This document shows, piece after piece, positions 18,435-62,353 of a stretch of DNA of 64,000 nt. The notes beneath the pieces were generated by a model that was given only the letters and a program-made list of their open reading frames with translations, was not told the DNA's origin and ran no database searches. Positions within the stretch are counted from its first letter, which is position 1. The number at the start of each line of letters is the position of its first letter. Made by a program: the position numbers and the translations under genes. This DNA comes from Erwinia pyrifoliae DSM 12163 (GTDB taxonomy: Bacteria; Pseudomonadota; Gammaproteobacteria; Enterobacterales; Enterobacteriaceae): assembly GCF_000026985.1 (NCBI RefSeq), contig NC_017390.1, forward strand, positions 2,005,422 to 2,069,421, given 5' to 3'.

Positions 18435-18648
18435 CAAGATTGATTTAACCAGATAGCGCTCACCCGGCAGCGGGGGCGCATCTGCATATGGGCGACCCGT
18501 TTTCATCCTGCCGGCCAGATGCTGGAAGCCCGTTATCCACCTCATCAGTTTCCAACCTTACACATCAGTTTTTTTTCAATGCCCTACATCAAAATTATCA
18601 TCTCATTCCCTATCGAAAATGATTATCCCCCAATCAACTGAGGTCATT

Positions 18649-21600
18649 ATGGTCAACATAAATGTAGAGGTTCCTGCTCAAGATATATTGCCACCGGGTA
18701 CTGATTACTCCGTCAATCTGGAACAATTCGCCAGGGACGAAAAAAACGCCGCCCTGACTCATCTTTTCGAATCAGCCAACAGCGAAGTCGGGACGCTTTC
18801 AGCCAAATCTTACGGATGCCTTATTAAAGAAGCATCAGGTGCTGTTCTGGCAACGTTAATACATTGGCGCCCCTGGCGCGGTGATGCCGCATGCAGAAAA
18901 AGTGAAGCCCGGGAAGTACTTTTACAAGGAAAAATAATTCAGCTTGAGGCAGAAGAAGCCCGTGTCTCTCTTAACTTACCAGATTGGCCGCAGCCGCTTA
19001 CATTATCGCTAAAGGGTAAAGCCGGGCTGGCTTTGGGCGCTGCTGCTGCACTGACTGGCGCAGGTCTCTGTTTAAGACAGGCAGGCAGAGATGCCCGTAA
19101 CAATCATTTCACACCAGACTATGGTGCTTCAGAAAAAGCCAGGGCTGCACCAGATAATGGGCTGCAAAGAATTTTTCATGGGGTTCCACACGTCAAGAGT
19201 ATCAGGGAGGGATCCGGGCCAGTCAGGCGACACATCGCTGAATCGCCGCCAGTACAAAACTGTTCAGATATCGTGCACGTTAAACCGCAGCGCAGATGCT
19301 ATAAAGTACGTGGTACCCCTTTCAGCCATCCTCCGGGCCAGGCTTCACAACCTGAAATCAGACCGTTAGATAAAAGAAGATTTATTATTGCCCCTTACCT
19401 TGATGACAAGGGCGCAGGCAATATAAGACCGACTACCTTGAAACCGACAGAAAACAACGCAGTCAAAATTGAAAAACTGTATGACTTTTCATGTATTGAT
19501 AAGCGTAAAGACTTATCCTGGGTTGATATCATCAGGCTGGTTGGGGTAACGCTTGGTTCGCCACTGAAAACGCTGGCAGAAGAATCACAAATTATACATC
19601 ACCAAAACACCCTGCATCAGGGGTGCCCCCCCAATGATAACAGTCAGCATCTGGCCGATATCGCGGGGCAAGTTGACACGGTATTAACTCAGGTTTTGAG
19701 TCTTCTTCCCAGTTCGTCTCCTCTTTGTGTACTGCAGCTGATGATTGGTCCGGCACTGGAGGTGTTCGCGAACCAGCTGGACGGAAAGCAGGTGGATTGG
19801 CAAAAAATAACCAACATCAACAAACAGCTAATACTGATGGCTCGTCAGACTATACCCACTCTGGCTCCTGATGAATTGATGATGTTATACGATAAAACAA
19901 AGATGACATCTCACAAGCCGGCATCTGGCGACGCTGAAATAATAAAGAAAAGGTTTGCTATAAAGGACGGGGAACTCACCGTAAAAATTCAGAATCAAGA
20001 ATATCTTTTCAAAGAAGACGCGTCCGGCGTCTCTTATGTTCAAAAGGATGGCGCAGCAGAAATAATTATTTTTAATACTGATACAGACCAATGGGAGTTT
20101 GCGAAAAAAATAAATCATCAAGATGTGTATCAGAAAAAACTAAAGCTTGATTATGGTATGGAAATAAAAAAACTGCCAGAAAACGGTGAATTTACTATCC
20201 ATGATTATGATGCAGTTAATAATTTATTTACCTTCACTAAAGACAAGGTTTCTTGCAAATCGGTACTGATGGATGGGTTTATTATTCCTGTTGAACAATT
20301 TAAGCTGGAGGGCAGGCAAACGGTGACTTTAGCATCACCCTCAAACAGGGCTGAAATGAGAGTTCTGCTAAAAGAAGGCAATAGCTGGTTTTTCGAAGCC
20401 GAATCAACGTTGATAGACGAAAATCTTGGGCTTCTTTTAGCGAGTAAAGGGAAAGGGGCCAGCCATCTCAGAGAGAACATGTTTACTAACATCCAGGATG
20501 ATGGGTTTAGTTACGACAAATTTAACAGGCCACAAATAAAATATAAAAACAAATATAGCCATGTCAGCCGGGTTACGGATTCGATCTATATGATTAATGA
20601 TATCCCGGGTAATTTTTTTGTTAAAGAAAATGGATATTTCACTCTGCAAAGTTCCGACGATATCATCAAAGGCCACGAAAGAGAAATCGCTGGTGACCTA
20701 CGGTTTGATAGCAGAAATAGCGTCTATATAGAGAGAGAGGCGCAGGGTTATCTTTTGGCTCAGGGTAAATTAACCGACAGTTCACCGAAAGTAATAATTG
20801 GTCCTGGTGTTTATCTGGACGCTAAGGGGAGTGTGATATTTTCAACAGCTAACAATAATTTTGAAGTGGCCTACTACAAAGGAGGTGTTCTTGAAGTTAA
20901 AAGGGGATATGATGATGGCAGCAAAAATATAGCGCTATATTTTGATGAGGGAACTTATTTTAGAGTGAGGAAGGAAAATGATATCCTCCCAAAAAAATAC
21001 AAAAAACTCAGTGGTTGTAAGCAAAAGCGCTCACCTGGCGCCTTATCAAAAACTTGCCTTCCAGTAATGATGACAGAAAGTCTAAATAAATTATTAAAAA
21101 ATGAAATTATAAGGGGGAATACAAGTAACAAGACCCTGTTAGATAAAGCTATTACAAGTAGTCAAAACGACGATTTTCCTAATTTAAAATATTCGACTGA
21201 AAATGGAAAGTTTTATTTTCTTCATGAAGGATGTTACTTTAGTGCTGAATGGATCAGCAAAGGCAACACGTTGAATCCTACCGGCAAACCCGCTATAAAA
21301 TTGTACGCCAAAGGTAATATATTTCGCAAACACAGAGATATTGCCATTATTACCAGTGAAATAAAAGATGGCAAGTACGAGCTGAAAACGACTGTTGAAT
21401 ACATCTCGGAGAAACTCAATATCGACGAGATGATGGCTGAGGATTTTAACCACAAACGCAGATACAGACGTATTTCGGGGTTGGACTCTCTTTCCAACGC
21501 AGTCAGGCAGGTTAACTTATCTGGCAAGCATTATTTCTCCAAAACCACGACGAAATTTACTCCTGACACGCCTGACGATACATTAAAAACAATTATACGA

Positions 21601-22482
21601 AAAAAATTCTATCCTGAAAGAGTGGTTAATAATCCAGACAATCTCGTAGAGATTCTGGGCGCAAAGGAGGTTTCACCATCACGGCCGTACTATCTGCGTG
21701 CTGTCGCTGCTGAAATAACTCAACATATTCAATATATCAGAGAAGAGCTATTGCCGGTGGTATTGATCGGGCTAAATAGCTTATCTGAGAATTACAGGGC
21801 CTATTTTGGAAAAATATTCAAAACTGATGATGCTAATTTTCTGATTAATTTTTCCGCCCGTTTATACAGTCGGCTGAGTAAGATAAGTAGCAATCTGAGC
21901 ATGAGTAAAATCTATTTATGCGCGCTTCATAATAATGCAGCCGGACTGCCCTCTGGGCAAAAACCCGTCGAAGAATACAGCTACCAGCAAATTCTAACCG
22001 CTAACGAAAGACAGCAGGGCACTTTTGCCACCACTCTTACCGACAGCAGTAAACGCATTTTCATTAATACAGACAAGCTCTATTTTATTGACCCTACAGC
22101 TGTTGGCCACACGCTGAGCGAAGAGTCATCGACAGATGTTGTCACTACGTTAATCCATGAAGGATCACACATTGGTCTTATGGCAACTGATATTGTTTAT
22201 TTCCCGAGGAATGAGGGCGTTATCGCTCCGATCCTCGATTCTATCGACTATATGAAGCAAGCCATCAGAAACAACAGGATAGTAAACAGGAACGACTTTA
22301 ACCGCCTGAATAATGAATATTTTGGCAGTATCTCAGTTTATAAAGAGATAAAGAATGATATTATGCAAAGGGATGATCTCGTCTATATCATTGAGAACGA
22401 TCCGGCTTATCTGGCTCATTTATTATTGAATAATGCAGATGGGTTAGCCATTTTGGCCAGAGATCTTTACGAACTATCCTAA
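18649..22482 (+). CDS. Giant protein with C-terminal HExxH (M35-like) metallopeptidase domain
   Basis: About 1277 residues, function not established. An N-terminal soluble region holds a hydrophobic glycine/alanine segment (LALGAAAALTGAGL) near residue 130. A conserved block around DKRRFIIAPYLDD to PTLAPDEL follows. The middle (about 420-950) is beta-rich, with repeated FxV/YxxxG-like strands. The C-terminus has HEGSH (H1170, E1171, H1174), then ATD (D1181), and near the end NAD (1262-1264). HExxH with a following Asp and a terminal NADxxxxxA block recalls aspzincins (peptidase M35). I infer a zinc protease-type toxin or effector. No signal peptide is seen. The ATG at 18649 with TGAGG upstream is chosen over the one at 18619, because it aligns with the start of the paralogue. 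The gene is AT-rich. Confidence 0.7.
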   Translation: MVNINVEVPAQDILPPGTDYSVNLEQFARDEKNAALTHLFESANSEVGTLSAKSYGCLIKEASGAVLATLIHWRPWRGDAACRKSEAREVLLQGKIIQLEAEEARVSLNLPDWPQPLTLSLKGKAGLALGAAAALTGAGLCLRQAGRDARNNHFTPDYGASEKARAAPDNGLQRIFHGVPHVKSIREGSGPVRRHIAESPPVQNCSDIVHVKPQRRCYKVRGTPFSHPPGQASQPEIRPLDKRRFIIAPYLDDKGAGNIRPTTLKPTENNAVKIEKLYDFSCIDKRKDLSWVDIIRLVGVTLGSPLKTLAEESQIIHHQNTLHQGCPPNDNSQHLADIAGQVDTVLTQVLSLLPSSSPLCVLQLMIGPALEVFANQLDGKQVDWQKITNINKQLILMARQTIPTLAPDELMMLYDKTKMTSHKPASGDAEIIKKRFAIKDGELTVKIQNQEYLFKEDASGVSYVQKDGAAEIIIFNTDTDQWEFAKKINHQDVYQKKLKLDYGMEIKKLPENGEFTIHDYDAVNNLFTFTKDKVSCKSVLMDGFIIPVEQFKLEGRQTVTLASPSNRAEMRVLLKEGNSWFFEAESTLIDENLGLLLASKGKGASHLRENMFTNIQDDGFSYDKFNRPQIKYKNKYSHVSRVTDSIYMINDIPGNFFVKENGYFTLQSSDDIIKGHEREIAGDLRFDSRNSVYIEREAQGYLLAQGKLTDSSPKVIIGPGVYLDAKGSVIFSTANNNFEVAYYKGGVLEVKRGYDDGSKNIALYFDEGTYFRVRKENDILPKKYKKLSGCKQKRSPGALSKTCLPVMMTESLNKLLKNEIIRGNTSNKTLLDKAITSSQNDDFPNLKYSTENGKFYFLHEGCYFSAEWISKGNTLNPTGKPAIKLYAKGNIFRKHRDIAIITSEIKDGKYELKTTVEYISEKLNIDEMMAEDFNHKRRYRRISGLDSLSNAVRQVNLSGKHYFSKTTTKFTPDTPDDTLKTIIRKKFYPERVVNNPDNLVEILGAKEVSPSRPYYLRAVAAEITQHIQYIREELLPVVLIGLNSLSENYRAYFGKIFKTDDANFLINFSARLYSRLSKISSNLSMSKIYLCALHNNAAGLPSGQKPVEEYSYQQILTANERQQGTFATTLTDSSKRIFINTDKLYFIDPTAVGHTLSEESSTDVVTTLIHEGSHIGLMATDIVYFPRNEGVIAPILDSIDYMKQAIRNNRIVNRNDFNRLNNEYFGSISVYKEIKNDIMQRDDLVYIIENDPAYLAHLLLNNADGLAILARDLYELS

Positions 22483-22839
22483 TAATGAGTGAGGAGCAAT
22501 AATCAGCAATATATCGGCCCAGAGATGACGTGGCTTCCTTTAGCAGTAGATTAGCTTTATCTTCCGCTGCAATATCGGATGAAACTATTTTACCCGGTAC
22601 TTATAGTGGGTATTGCACGCGGAATTCTTTCTTGAAAGAAAAATAAACGGATATTTAGTACAATATGCATCCTGTTCCATTGGTGATTAAAAAATAAATG
22701 GTGGGAATCATCTCAATTAAGTATTGCGAAATTATTAGCGTTATCTTATATCAATTCATCGTTTCCTCGCGTTTAGCACAAGAATATCATTGCTCTATAT
22801 GGTACCCATGGCCACCTTATTATCAAAAGAGGCTGTAAC
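22483..22839. other. AT-rich interval between the two giant paralogues
   Basis: About 357 bases with no gene. AAAGAGG just before 22840 is the ribosome-binding site of the second copy. No hrp-box-like GGAACC...CCAC pair is visible here or upstream of the first copy. Confidence 0.4.
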
Positions 22840-24273
22840 ATGCTTAATACAAACGAAAAGGTTAATTGTCAGGCCACACCTTCTCCCCATGCTGATACGA
22901 ATATAAACCTTGAGTATCACGCTCCTGACGGCAAGCCATCCCCTCTCACCGATCTGTTCGAAACTGCCAATAACAGTACTCAGGCATTTTCAACTTCGGC
23001 CGGTAGGCGTCCTTACATAAATGCAGTCCGTGCTGTATGGAAAGCGGTCGAATGCTGGCGGCCCTGGACCGTCAATAATGCATGCAGCGAGAGCATGGAA
23101 ACACAAGAAGTCCTTTTGCAAGGCAAAAGGCTTTATCTTGAGGCAAAAGAGGCCAGTCGCTCTCTATGCGATAAAGAAGGGATCGAGCCGCCCCCCTTTT
23201 CGCTAAAAGGTAAAGTGGGGCTTGCTTTGGGCGCAGCCGCAGCACTCACCGGGGCAGGGCTGTATTTCTGCAAGGGCACCAGAGACAAGCGTGACGATTG
23301 CTCTTTACAAGGTGGCAGAGCAGCTGGCGCTGTTACTGCGCCAGTGCCATTTTCGACCCGGTTGCAGCGGCCATCACTGCCTTATAACAAGGTCATTAAG
23401 GGTACAAGACATGTCAGGCGGCATCTTGCTGAAAGACAGACGGCTTCTGCACCGAAAAAAGGGCTTGTGGATGATGTCAAACCCGAATCGTTAAAAACAT
23501 GTTATAAGCCTTATGGTCTGTTAAAAATGCCTGTCCTGCAGAGAGTTCCTTGTGGTTTGCTTAACAAGCGTCGCCCGACTTTAAGAAAAAAAGTGACTAC
23601 CCGCCATCAGAGTTCGAAAACAACGATCTCCTCTCAGTCATTGAGCGAAACAACAACTCTCAGTACCACCCGTTTTCATCAAACAAGTGATTCAACCTTT
23701 AACATGAGTAAACCTTACCCTCCCAGGGGTTCAGGTCGGAATATCATGCCAGTTGATAAACGAAAATTTTTTATTTCGCCCGACCTCGATAGTCGGGATC
23801 TAACAGGCGCAGATCCCGTTACCATAACACCGACTAAAAACGGCCATATCAGCATCGAACAATTATTCGACTTTTCATGTGTTGATAAGCGGAAAGACTT
23901 ATCATGGGCAGATATCATCAGACAGATTGGTCTTACGCTGGGTTCTCCACTGAAATTGCTGCTGGAAGAGTCGCAGATTGTTCATCACCATAATACCCTG
24001 CGACAAGGATGTCCCACGGATAGCGAGAGGCAGCACCTTAGTAATATCACAGGCCAGATTGATGCCGGGTTAACACAAATCATGAGTTTCCTGCCTGGCT
24101 CGCAGCCTGTTGTCGTGCTGCAGCTGATCGTAGGGCCTGCGCTTGAAGTGTTCGCGGATCAGCTTGAAGGCAAGCCTACAGATGTGCAGAAAACAAATGA
24201 GCTCAACACACAGTTATTGCTTATGGCCCGACAGACCATCCCCACGCTGTCAGCTAATGAATTAACCCATTGA
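22840..24273 (+). CDS. N-terminal part of second giant paralogue
   Basis: 477 residues matching about the first 420 of the upstream giant protein: LTDLFETANN, ECWRPWTVNNAC, QEVLLQGKRLYLEAKEASR, GLALGAAAALTGAGLYF, VDKRKFFISPDLD, FDFSCVDKRKDLSWADIIR and QTIPTLSANEL. It has an extra Ser/Thr-rich linker (about 245-300) absent from copy 1. It has a good ribosome-binding site (AAGAGG). The frame ends at ANELTH with a TGA exactly where the beta-rich middle should begin. The product therefore lacks both the middle and the HExxH domain. It may be translated as a stub or as a separate N-terminal protein; more likely it is one half of a broken gene. Confidence 0.65.
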   Translation: MLNTNEKVNCQATPSPHADTNINLEYHAPDGKPSPLTDLFETANNSTQAFSTSAGRRPYINAVRAVWKAVECWRPWTVNNACSESMETQEVLLQGKRLYLEAKEASRSLCDKEGIEPPPFSLKGKVGLALGAAAALTGAGLYFCKGTRDKRDDCSLQGGRAAGAVTAPVPFSTRLQRPSLPYNKVIKGTRHVRRHLAERQTASAPKKGLVDDVKPESLKTCYKPYGLLKMPVLQRVPCGLLNKRRPTLRKKVTTRHQSSKTTISSQSLSETTTLSTTRFHQTSDSTFNMSKPYPPRGSGRNIMPVDKRKFFISPDLDSRDLTGADPVTITPTKNGHISIEQLFDFSCVDKRKDLSWADIIRQIGLTLGSPLKLLLEESQIVHHHNTLRQGCPTDSERQHLSNITGQIDAGLTQIMSFLPGSQPVVVLQLIVGPALEVFADQLEGKPTDVQKTNELNTQLLLMARQTIPTLSANELTH

Positions 24274-25447
24274 TACAATAAACAAACATACGGATATTGC
24301 TATTGTCTGCTGTGAGGTTATAAATGACAGGCACGAATTAAAAACGACCACCGAATATATATCGGAAAAGCTCAATATAAATGAAAATATGAGTGAGAAC
24401 TTTATAATAAACAGAAAGTACAATCATCTCTCCGGTTTCAATATTCTCGCCAACGCGGTCAGACAGGTTAGTTTGTCAGGCGATCATTATTTCTCACCGC
24501 TTTTGCTAAAATTTAGCCCGGATATCCCTGAACCCACTGTAACATCGCTTATCAGGAAGATCCTTTACCCTGAAAGAGTGTGTAACAATGATAAAAACGT
24601 CGTGGGGATTTATCGTGCTAAGGATATTACCAGCTCACATCCCTTCTATCTACGTGCCGTCGCACTAAAAATTACACACCATATCAGTCATATCAGGGAA
24701 GTGTTGATCCCGGCCGTGAGCAGAGCGCTTAATGAATTACCCTGGAACTATGAAAGCTATCTTGGTAACGTGCTGGGTACTGATAATATCGATTTTATTA
24801 TCAATTTTTCATCTCAACTGCTCACACGCCTCAATAAAATACGCAATAATTTAAATCTGGATAACGTCTATTTATGTGCGCTTAATAAGGATGCTTCCAG
24901 ATGGGAAACTGCGCAAGGGCCGGTTGAAAGATATTCATATCAGGAAATACTTACCCGGGAGGAGCGACGCGGCGGGACCTTTGCCTCTACTCTCACGGAT
25001 AAGAGCATGAGGATTTTTATTAATACGGATAAATTATATTATATCGATGCACAAAATCCTGACCAATTATTACAAGAGGAGGCAGCGACCGATGTGATCA
25101 CGACTCTGATTCATGAAGCATCTCATGTCGGAACCATGGCTACTGATATTGTTTATTTCCCGAGAAAAGATGGCACCATTGCCCCAATTCTCGATTCAAT
25201 TGGCGATATGAAGGAATTAATAAGAAATAATAAAGTGATAAAAACAAAAGATTTTAATCGCCTGAATAATGAATACTTTACCAGTATATCCGTTTATAAA
25301 GACATAAGAAGTCACATCATGGAGGCAGACAAGCTTGTCTATATCATAGAAAATGACCCTGCTTACCTGGCACATCTGTTGCTTCACAACGCTGATGGCT
25401 TAGCGATTCTGGCAAGAGATCTGTACCTAATCTCCGAAAAGGAATAA
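24266..25447 (+). pseudogene. C-terminal HExxH part of second giant paralogue, out of frame
   Basis: This frame opens at 24266 and aligns at once with copy 1 (NKHTDIAIVCCEV against FRKHRDIAIITSEI), so about 500 residues of the middle are deleted. The junction shifts the reading frame by one base relative to the upstream half. The first ATG is at 24389 (MSENFIINRKYNHLSGF), without a ribosome-binding site. The catalytic-looking parts are intact: HEASH followed by ATD, the block FNRLNNEYF, and the terminal NADGLAILARDLY, close to copy 1 throughout. Either it is a dead fragment, or it is expressed by reinitiation after the upstream stop about 120 bases earlier. Confidence 0.7.
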
Positions 25448-47898: not shown

Positions 47899-47906
47899 GG
47901 GCAGGG
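47899..47906 (+). promoter_or_regulatory. KOPS motif pointing to dif
   Basis: GGGCAGGG matches the FtsK-orienting consensus GGGNAGGG. It reads rightward, toward dif 0.8 kb away. Confidence 0.55.
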
Positions 47907-48060: not shown

Positions 48061-48657
48061 TTAAAAAACCTTAATTTTAGCCATTAATAACCCCGTTCCT
48101 GTACATAACGACCGACCATAGCGGCTCCAGGACATTACGTGTTCCTGTAGTCGGATGGATTCCAGCAGGCAGCACTTCGGTGCACGGCCTTCAAACCAGT
48201 CGTGGTGTGAACCGTCAATCTGAATGAGTTCACCCAAACAGTCGCGGCGATACCGGGGCTGATAGACTCGCGATCGCCGATGGGCATGCGGCACCCAGAG
48301 AGCATCGGCAGTCATCCAGCAGCGCAGCGTCTCGACTGAAACAGAAATCCCGTGACGCCCCTGAAGCTTTTCTGCGGCAAATGTGGGCCCGAAACCGACG
48401 TAATTTTCACGTAGCAGCGTCAGTATCCGATGGCGCAGTGCAACATCAATGCGATGAGTTCCAGGCATACCGCGACGAGTGTTCGTCAACCCGGCAGCAC
48501 CGGATTCCCTGAAGCGGTTCATCAGACGTTGTACCTGACGTTCTGTGAGATCCAACTGAGAGGCGGTATCACGGCGACGCAGGCGCTTTTCAACAACGGC
48601 CTGGATCACCGGCAAGCGGTGGAGTTCTTTAGAAGAGATCTCCCATAAAGGTGGCAA
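48061..48657 (-). mobile_element. Truncated ISNCY-type transposase remnant
   Basis: 198-codon frame. It contains the N-terminal HTH (ASQLDLTERQVQRLMNRFRESG), a second helical domain (YVGFGPTFAAEKLQGRHGISVSVETLR) and the beginning of the DDE domain (ELIQIDGSHHDWFEGRAPKC). After that last motif the sequence changes to unrelated residues (CLLESIRLQEHVMSW...). The catalytic core beyond the first Asp is missing, so it cannot be active. The left boundary appears deleted. On the right, TGACATTAT occurs twice about 25 bases apart (from about 48677), as at many IS ends. It lies about 70 bp from dif. Confidence 0.8.
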
Positions 48658-48726
48658 ATGCGCCGTATCTGGGTGACATTATAAACTAGCTAAAAAGTGA
48701 CATTATCAAATGGGACTTACAACATT

Positions 48727-48754
48727 GGTGCGCATAATGTATATTATGTTAAAT
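48727..48754 (+). other. dif: dif: XerCD chromosome-dimer resolution site
   Basis: 28 bp identical to the E. coli dif core as I know it: XerC arm GGTGCGCATAA (48727-48737), 6-bp centre, XerD arm TTATGTTAAAT (48744-48754). XerC and XerD recombine sister chromosomes here under FtsK control. It marks the replication terminus of this chromosome. It lies between an IS remnant and a phd-doc pair, in non-coding DNA. Confidence 0.97.
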
Positions 48755-48785
48755 TGAATAGACTGGGGCGAGGATAGCGCTTTTG

Positions 48786-49157
48786 TCATGCAGACTGTTT
48801 TAGTGCTTCAGCAATATGCCATACATCCAGGCTCCCCTGCGCTGCTGCGACAGCCAACTCTTCATGGCTTGGAGAAAACCGAAGAAGAATCCCATTACGG
48901 CGCAGAAATAATGCCGTTGAAGCAAATGCGGTTCTCTTATTTGCATCATTGAAACAATGCCCCCGCGCGATGGCCAGCAGATATGCAGCAGCCAGAACGT
49001 ATATATCAACCTCGCCTTCGTACATGTGGCGGTTCAGAATTCGTGTTGCCATACTTTCTATCCGACCAGGATCAGCATAACCGGCCAGACCTCCGTAAGC
49101 GACAATCATACGCTCATGAATGCCGATGATGTCTTCACTGGTTAGAAAATTGATCAT
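48786..49157 (-). CDS. doc: Doc-type toxin (Fic fold, death on curing)
   Basis: Toxin of a type II toxin-antitoxin module, 123 residues. The Fic motif HCFNDANKR (H67-R75) matches HxFx(D/N)xNKR. In phage P1 Doc this motif phosphorylates elongation factor Tu and halts translation. Also seen: the N-terminal FLTSEDIIGIHERMI and GGLAGYADPGRIES, which shape the Doc fold. Its ATG overlaps the phd stop as ATGA, so translation is coupled. The catalytic motif is intact, so the module could be active. The last residue lies about 30 bp from dif. Confidence 0.94.
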   Translation of the reverse strand: MINFLTSEDIIGIHERMIVAYGGLAGYADPGRIESMATRILNRHMYEGEVDIYVLAAAYLLAIARGHCFNDANKRTAFASTALFLRRNGILLRFSPSHEELAVAAAQGSLDVWHIAEALKQSA

Positions 49158-49375
49158 CGGTTCTTAAGAGCCTCAAGTGTCTGCCCATGTTCAGTAAACA
49201 ACCAATCAAAGTCCGATTCGGCCTGAATCTTTTGCATTTTTTCATACTGCCCGGCATCAATCACTATAACGGGCTTTGCCGATCTGCGTGTGATCATTAC
49301 TGGCTTACCGTTGGCAACGCTATCAAGAACGGATGCCAGTTCATTACGGGCTGTTGTAAAATTTATAGCTTGCAT
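49154..49375 (-). CDS. phd: Phd/YefM-type antitoxin
   Basis: Antitoxin and repressor, 73 residues. The N-terminal DNA-binding Phd fold is MQAINFTTARNELASVLDSVANGKPVMITRRSAKPVIVIDAGQYEKMQ. The C-terminal tail (FDWLFTEHGQTLEALKNR) is the helix that neutralises Doc. The ATG at 49375 is preferred to the one at 49381, because AAGG lies at the right distance (8 bases). Three tandem 12-bp repeats lie about 20 bp upstream and are the probable operator. Confidence 0.92.
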   Translation of the reverse strand: MQAINFTTARNELASVLDSVANGKPVMITRRSAKPVIVIDAGQYEKMQKIQAESDFDWLFTEHGQTLEALKNR

Positions 49376-49394
49376 AGTCATAGCCTTATTGAAA

Positions 49395-52228: not shown

Positions 52229-52705
52229 CTACGTACCCTTCCCGATCAACCCTTTACGCATGCGAAAATTGATAAAGTACTGGCCACGTACCGCTACGCT
52301 CTGCTGCGCCACCAGTTGATAGCCTCGCTGCATAAAGAAAGACTTTGCCGTTATACTTGCTTCAGTATCAACCTGTTTTAATCCTTTTTCAGTGGCTGCT
52401 TGCTCTAGCGTATTCATCAGCAATGTCGCCACCCCGCAGCGCTGGTAGCCTGCATCGGTGAATAACAGGTCAAGATGGCCATGAGCTTCCAGCAAAGTGA
52501 AACCAATGATCTTATTATTGTGGCAGGCCACCCACACATCACCGTTGTCCAAACGCCGCTTCCAGTCGGTGCGATCAGCATGGCTCCAGGCTTCGGTTTG
52601 TTGCTGACTGTAATCCCGTGCCGCAATTAGCCGTACTGCCCGTTGGAAAACGGCAATAACGGTTGTCAGGTCGGCGGGTTGGTATTTTCTGATGGTGATT
52701 TCCAT
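52229..52705 (-). CDS. GNAT N-acetyltransferase, YafP-like
   Basis: 158-residue GNAT-fold acetyltransferase. The beta4-alpha3 acetyl-CoA pocket is seen in LDLLFTDAGYQRCGVATLLMNTLE (Q/RxxGxA-type loop). It is preceded by VWVACHNNKIIGFTLLE and followed by VDTEASITAKSFFMQRGYQ. It resembles E. coli YafP, including the VxASITAKPFF block. The acceptor is unknown. The start is taken at the Met 52705, since upstream residues are unlike the family. Confidence 0.85.
   Translation of the reverse strand: MEITIRKYQPADLTTVIAVFQRAVRLIAARDYSQQQTEAWSHADRTDWKRRLDNGDVWVACHNNKIIGFTLLEAHGHLDLLFTDAGYQRCGVATLLMNTLEQAATEKGLKQVDTEASITAKSFFMQRGYQLVAQQSVAVRGQYFINFRMRKGLIGKGT
52236..52243 (-). promoter_or_regulatory. 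KOPS motif pointing back to dif
   Basis: On the minus strand GGGAAGGG, reading leftward toward dif 3.5 kb away. This is opposite in orientation to copies left of dif, as expected for FtsK guidance. Confidence 0.5.
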
Positions 52706-61828: not shown

Positions 61829-62353
61829 TCAGTAACCCGCAAAATCGCCTGACGCCTGCCCTTCCAGACGATATGCACCCACTTCGATATATTCCCCGGC
61901 TACCTGGTAGCGCTGACCATGTTCGGGATGTTCTCTGCCGAAGTTTCGTGCCGATCCTTCAGGCGGCGAGGTCACCACATTCCAGCCGGCTCGGCCGTTA
62001 CTTAGCAGATCAAGCGAAGCAAGCTGTCGTGCCTCGGTAAACGGGTCGCTGTAAGAAATGGAAACCGTTCCGGCCAGCCCGATACGTTGCGTGACCGCCG
62101 TCAATGATGAGAGTAGCGCCAGCGGCTCGAAGCGATTAAGGAAATGCGGCAGCGATTTTTCATTAATGTGCAGCCCGTCAGCGACAAACAGAAAATCGAG
62201 TCCGCCATATTCCGCCTGGCGTGCCAACTGGTGATACCAGTTAACATTAACGCTGGCATCGGCAGGCACGCTATGATGACGCCAGGCGTTCATATAGCCG
62301 CCTGCGCCCTGTAACATCAGGCCGAGTTTAATCCGACGTGGGGTTTGACTCAT
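61829..62353 (-). pseudogene. Truncated LLM-class flavin monooxygenase (NtaA/SnaA/DszA type)
   Basis: 174 codons covering only the N-terminal 40 percent of a roughly 440-residue FMN-dependent monooxygenase. Seen: [80 protein letters not shown] and [21 protein letters not shown]. After YIEV the expected continuation is missing, and an unrelated-looking dozen residues lead to a stop. The family oxidises organosulfur compounds or chelators with FMNH2. The enzyme cannot fold fully, so this is a gene remnant; a functional short form is unlikely. Confidence 0.85.

Follow-up and report, generated by a model that had tools for sequence, protein, structure and literature searches.

The chromosomal dif site of Erwinia pyrifoliae is adjoined by the dead remnant of an IS1202-family element that very probably targeted it

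We analysed a 64,000-nucleotide stretch of the Erwinia pyrifoliae DSM 12163 genome (contig NC_017390.1, positions 2,005,422 to 2,069,421; hereafter the window) and are highly confident that it contains the chromosomal dif site of this bacterium, adjoined by the dead remnant of an IS1202-family insertion sequence that had used dif as its target. The site itself is an ordinary and well-supported chromosomal dif. In Escherichia coli, dimer resolution at dif involves FtsK, KOPS, XerC and XerD; the site lies mid-chromosome, with KOPS and skew converging on it, and is served by XerC, XerD and the FtsK gamma domain. By analogy with E. coli, FtsK of E. pyrifoliae would move along KOPS-polarised DNA to dif at the division septum, where XerC and XerD would occupy the two 11-bp arms and recombine across the 6-bp centre, thereby resolving chromosome dimers.

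A pattern search of the window recovered the E. coli dif 28-mer at 48727..48754 on the forward strand. This was the sole match in the window with up to three mismatches, and none of 100 dinucleotide shuffles gave any match. The E. coli K-12 MG1655 record carries the same 28-mer on its reverse strand, and the agreement of all 28 positions, in both arms, that the original prediction had stated was upheld against it without a single mismatch. With limits as drawn for dif in PMC10132070 (Table 5 for the arms), the site comprises, on the forward strand, the XerC arm GGTGCGCATAA (48727..48737), the central region TGTATA (48738..48743) and the XerD arm TTATGTTAAAT (48744..48754); its arms and 6-bp centre fit the gammaproteobacterial dif consensus. 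Across all 5 contigs of the genome, 4,072,827 bases in total, there is one dif copy with up to three mismatches and no second, better-placed site at this threshold of the kind that the prediction had named as a counter-argument.

The site lies at position 2,054,148 of a 4,026,286-bp contig, i.e. 51% along it. According to PMC2827408, strain DSM 12163T has a circular chromosome (4,026,286 bp) and four plasmids (35,901, 4,960, 3,070 and 2,610 bp), which sum to exactly 4,072,827, the genome total obtained here. A protein encoded in the window, SrfB, has its nearest named relatives in Erwinia. On the strength of this published set the contig is the chromosome, and a plasmid nature of the dif-bearing contig, the other counter-argument named beforehand, was rejected. 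GC skew and KOPS (GGGNAGGG) were tallied over sampled stretches of about 0.98 Mb, roughly a quarter of the chromosome, including contiguous 200 kb on each side of dif (L012, overlapping another stretch, was left out of the totals; L090 was unused; L061, with its start 147 bases to the left of dif, was assigned to the right). All 29 stretches on the left have a positive GC skew and 26 of the 29 on the right a negative one, and 39 of the 44 left and 35 of the 40 right KOPS point to dif. Within the contiguous 400 kb the KOPS polarity flips between -828 and +3509 bp of dif, the nearest left KOPS (GGGCAGGG; 47899..47906, forward strand) and the nearest right one (52236..52243, reverse strand) both pointing to it; three contrary KOPS lie at -121 kb, -61 kb and +11.7 kb. 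The skew reversal foreseen at dif is seen as a change of sign in the sampled stretches, with the cumulative skew of the 400 kb forming a nearly flat plateau from about -10 to +15 kb and culminating away from dif, at +14.9 kb. A profile search of the genome found XerD and an FtsK_gamma domain above their curated cut-offs, as well as an XerC-like recombinase, whose assignment as XerC comes from the second-best match to the XerD model and not from a model of its own. The single copy, skew reversal, KOPS switch, mid-chromosome position and these three components all support the placement of the window at the replication terminus, and the dif of the window fixes the terminus of a fire-blight relative. 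The skew sign also flips at the contig ends, so the replication origin is probably near them; dnaA is at 3,996,100, and the last 300 bases of the contig hold three DnaA-box-like words, which are suggestive only. As a separate observation, six XerD-like tyrosine recombinase genes, 6.5-7.7 kb apart, occur at G000:C3:3445796-3482085, a possible tandem array of integrated elements.

With up to three mismatches and with the own genome in each count, dif was recovered from 34 of 40 genomes, from 36 of 37 genomes of the genus, G052 giving no match, and from 99 of 150 genomes of the order. When 22 window ORFs were compared with the 20-kb dif loci of 20 genus members, the gene order on both sides of dif was found to be common to G016 only. 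Two further genomes (G009 and G017) share the left side as far as a carbonic anhydrase gene that lies 0.8-1.1 kb away from dif; in G010 the shared genes are the more distant srf genes, and the remaining members share at most scattered single genes. Since shared gene order is limited to so few relatives, dif lies at a synteny break in most of these 20 loci. Elsewhere, in another family, two loci (L265 of G163 and L266 of G096) have paired inverted dif sites, about 0.7 and 1.4 kb apart respectively; in L265 the ORF flanking the paired sites is duplicated as a mirror image.

The end of a truncated IS1202-family (ISNCY) element lies exactly 5 bp outside the XerC arm, the junction reading ...TTACA (element end), ACATT, dif. 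The remnant occupies 48104..48721 on the reverse strand; its far end is lost and its left boundary is approximate, homology to related elements running from about 48164 to dif and the element-free closest relative, G016, being homologous up to 48103. Its dif-side terminal 26 bp (48696..48721, reverse strand; outer end 5'-TGT) recur unchanged in G012 and G045, and the 5-bp spacer ACATT between the element end and the XerC arm (48722..48726, forward strand) is presumably the surviving copy of the target site. The remnant's transposase fragment, a 198-aa ORF at 48061..48657 on the reverse strand, reads away from dif, and about 160 of its residues align with the N-terminal part of the transposase of G014. 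It matches the NCBIfam model ISNCY_2 with E = 1.2e-54 over model positions 2-152 of 368, its score of 185.9 falling below the curated cut-off of 250 as expected of a truncated protein; the intact G014 transposase scores above this cut-off, and Pfam recovers only helix-turn-helix domains from the fragment. We envisage that dif served as the target of an IS1202-family element, which inserted at a distance of 5 bp from the XerC arm, and that a later deletion would have taken more than half of the element, with it the remainder of the transposase's catalytic part. Judged from its sequence, the window copy is a dead remnant that has left dif intact.

One dif locus from each of 36 genus genomes, with 1.5 kb on either side, was surveyed for related elements (the second G041 locus was excluded, G013 offered 213 bases on the XerC side and G004 935 on the other). 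A transposase match or fragment was found in ten of the 36 loci (G000, G005, G007, G008, G011, G012, G014, G045, G047 and G050), in every case lying on the XerC side and directed away from dif. In nine of the 36, the window's included, such a transposase is accompanied by ACA or ATA exactly 5 bp before dif; the G047 element lacks this end at 5 bp, and two loci without a transposase match (G006 and G020) have an ACA end. These transposases are diverse, their aligned stretches being 37-85% identical to the G014 transposase. Among 11 relatives checked, 5-bp target duplications were detected in two, G005 (CCATC; an element of 1526 bp) and G008 (ATGTC; the far end 2.6 kb off); the intact 1549-bp element of G014 is bounded by unequal 5-mers, without a target duplication, and none of the other eight gave a convincing far end. 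The outer ends expected of the family are TGT...ACA with terminal repeats of 24-26 bp; where both ends could be seen, these are alike in 19 of 26 bp (G005) and 16 of 26 bp (G014). Thus, dif-hunting insertion sequences have repeatedly hit chromosomal dif in Erwinia while sparing its 28 bp.

IS1202 elements and Xer sites were reportedly also the subject of work by Siguier and colleagues in Plasmid in 2023. Harmer, Pong and Hall (2023, PMC10132070) describe IS1202-family elements of 1.5 kb in Acinetobacter that adjoin dif on plasmids as well as chromosomes, 5 bp from the XerC arm, in one orientation and with 5-bp target duplications; the Erwinia elements show this behaviour too. The enterobacterial cases in Table 8 of PMC10132070 place ISKpn21 and other elements beside dif-like sites, one ISKpn21 site (CP024290) having the chromosomal-type TGTATA centre; going by that table, Erwinia may not be the first enterobacterial chromosomal case of IS1202 elements adjoining dif. 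An open-access literature search combining Erwinia with dif and XerC or IS1202 returned, among the best 12 matches for each combination, no title or abstract opening on such elements. On present sequence evidence the remnant is a new instance of a known dif-targeting habit.

Could the transposase fragment instead lie beside dif by chance, as one of the insertion-sequence remnants that accumulate at the terminus, with no targeting involved? Terminus regions do gather mobile DNA, and about 14% of the 161 proteobacterial dif sites covered in PMC2731167 adjoin insertion-sequence, transposase or integrase genes. Set against this are the same 5-bp spacing, side and orientation in nine of 36 Erwinia loci with diverse transposases, the 5-bp target duplications of two relatives, and the fact that the G014 transposase finds the remnant beside dif and nothing else in the window's genome, which together leave a chance placement very unlikely.

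We give even less weight to the idea that the dif-like site is the attL or attR scar of a Xer-dependent integrated element and not the native dif. As a known integration site of filamentous phages and islands (PMC2731167, in its treatment of such elements), dif invites this explanation, which we nevertheless regard as extremely improbable: there is no second dif in the genome with up to three mismatches, XerD-arm matches in the window (four including dif, against 1.76 expected) yield no significant second site, and the synteny with G016 runs on across both sides of dif. Least credible of all, to the point of being nearly negligible, is a fossil dif, with dimer resolution taking place elsewhere; this analysis found no evidence in its favour, and both the convergence of skew and KOPS on the window site and its single copy, again with up to three mismatches, speak against it. 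The site is best read as the native dif of the chromosome with an IS1202-family remnant beside it.

The original prediction had further held that the position at the terminus explains a clustering of mobile and decaying genes. A Pfam scan of 50 of the 99 window ORFs of at least 90 aa gave mostly ordinary metabolic, transport, regulatory or uncharacterised genes, and the only recognisable mobile-element gene among these 50 was the transposase fragment beside dif, which was named by NCBIfam. One such fragment is indeed present, but with a single mobile ORF in 50 the proposed clustering is weak; the presence of this sole mobile gene is better attributed to IS1202-type targeting of dif than to a general property of the terminus. 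Nor did decay hold up for the neighbours on the XerD side. There lies a phd-doc toxin-antitoxin pair, both genes of which are intact: a doc-type (Fic/DOC) toxin gene of 123 aa (48786..49157, reverse strand), recognised above cut-off by Pfam Fic and NCBIfam TIGR01550, and a Phd/YefM-type antitoxin gene of 75 aa (49154..49381, reverse strand), an open frame whose stop overlaps the doc start. An initial reading of the latter as a decayed antitoxin was dropped, the correct reading frame being intact. Doc is shared with G016 at 90%, and the pair has a relative on a Rahnella plasmid, with 85.7% DNA identity, where the paired arrangement is annotated. Neither the surroundings of dif in the window nor six related loci gave an Rfam family. 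Farther from dif, three adjacent ORFs (1287, 477 and 352 aa) at 18619-25447 have no Pfam matches and lie in DNA of mostly low G+C (0.39-0.44 from 20 to 26 kb), and this stretch is possibly acquired DNA. Likewise, a 174-aa luciferase-like monooxygenase ORF at 61829-62353 covers positions 21-138 of a 314-position profile only and is probably a gene fragment.

Beyond the 28-mer, we observed conserved T residues on the XerD flank. They were counted in 92 dif loci with enough flank (36 from the genus, 18 from other enterics and 38 from farther members of the order), the 99 matching genomes of the order being represented by those with an available locus or sequence stretch; L236, whose flank on the XerC side is too short, and the inverted pairs of L265 and L266 are omitted from the set. 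A T occupies the fifth base beyond the XerD arm (+5) in 80 of the 92 loci, the seventh (+7) in 77 and both in 67, against a T background of 0.26-0.32. One locus, L132, has the same XerC-side flank as the genus member G044 and is probably of the same species; without it the counts are 79 and 76 of 91. In the window itself (flank at 48755-48761) the T at +5 is present, but a G replaces the usual T at +7. Viral dif-like sites were taken from at least 120 loci, with 4 short and 10 repeated rows dropped; among the matches listed, those with other centres have T at +5 and at +7 in 46 and 46 of 92, and those with the TGTATA centre in 10 and 6 of 14, against a T background of 0.29-0.30. The viral sites thus show the T residues more weakly than the 92 loci do, yet also above background, so that the signal extends beyond chromosomal dif. 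High variability outside the 28-mer is described by Carnoy and Roten (PMC2731167); among the matches listed in a literature search, no title or abstract opening treats the +5 and +7 bases, and neither do flank-related passages of PMC3025954 and PMC7062461. Tentatively, and as something we would call possible but short of probable, conserved dif may be longer than 28 bp and extend, throughout the order, to the T residues at +5 and +7, which XerD or FtsK gamma would then likely contact and which would set FtsK-controlled sites apart. This role of the T residues is one that we infer from their conservation. The dif-hunting insertion sequences were seen only on the opposite (XerC) side, so the T extension on the XerD side would be spared by them. 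The residues provide an easy way to probe whether dif exceeds 28 bp.

Another element recurs around dif in Erwinia, a 57-bp inverted repeat (CGCTACGTGAAWTC-N29-GAWTTCACGTAGCG) with conserved arms and a variable centre. Searches of whole genomes with up to three mismatches, using a pattern drawn from copies near dif, gave 31 copies in 19 of the 37 genus genomes, the window's genome having none; the reversed control pattern had no match in the same 37, and an early exact version of the pattern had matched 1 of 24 genomes. On the contig with dif lie 23 of the 31 copies (two like copies in G041 being counted twice), none of them farther than 61 kb from dif and 17 no farther than 5 kb; the other 8 are on other contigs. 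Near-dif copies are seen in loci L094, L095, L096, L098, L100, L101, L103, L105-L108, L111 and L112. Weak BLAST matches (E 0.008 to 4) led to similar 57-bp repeats near a tyrosine recombinase gene and repB on the three IncFIB plasmids examined, and to one on a small plasmid with neither repB nor a tyrosine recombinase in the stretch shown. Exact copies are also present in four viral contigs (L387, L388, L389 and L390), flanked by tail genes in L387 and adjacent to terminase genes in both L389 and L390, L388 repeating the L387 layout in mirror image as judged by ORF layout only; no exact XerD arm was found near them in the stretches examined. Given these viral copies beside tail and terminase genes without an XerD arm, the repeat is not dif-specific; its inclusion as a part of dif was dropped, and we retain only that it clusters near dif in Erwinia. 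Its interpretation as an integron attC-like or Xer site was rejected, there being no sequence match. In many Erwinia loci (e.g. L110, L102 and L103) a box like CAGAWTTCACGTA, which resembles one arm of the repeat, stands at a fixed distance of about 20 bp on the XerC side of dif; it is missing where an insertion-sequence end abuts dif. In the flank set, a CAGAWTYC box on the XerC side, about 22 bp away from dif, is present at one offset in 12 of 36 genus and 5 of 18 other enteric loci and one base nearer in 2 of the 18; the 38 farther loci have it at neither offset. The case for this box as an essential part of dif is weakened by the insertion-sequence end that takes its place in 10 to 12 of the 36 Erwinia loci.

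Two known systems serve as points of comparison. The dif of E. coli K-12 (NC_000913.3, between yneL and hipA) has 28 of 28 bases as in the window, and the window's genome likewise has its site mid-chromosome, with KOPS and skew converging on it, and encodes XerD, a XerC-like recombinase and FtsK gamma; the neighbour genes and flanking sequence in E. coli are unlike those of the window, where the XerC side is adjoined by an insertion-sequence end. The element itself resembles the ISAjo2-type subgroup of the IS1202 family, as described by Harmer, Pong and Hall (2023, PMC10132070), in lying 5 bp from the XerC arm with the outer end TGT and in its ISNCY-type transposase reading away from dif, and its Erwinia relatives do so in their lengths of 1526 and 1549 bp and, in two of them, 5-bp target duplications. 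It differs from the subgroup so described in its host, the chromosome of Erwinia as opposed to Acinetobacter, and in that the window copy is truncated and, to all appearances, dead.
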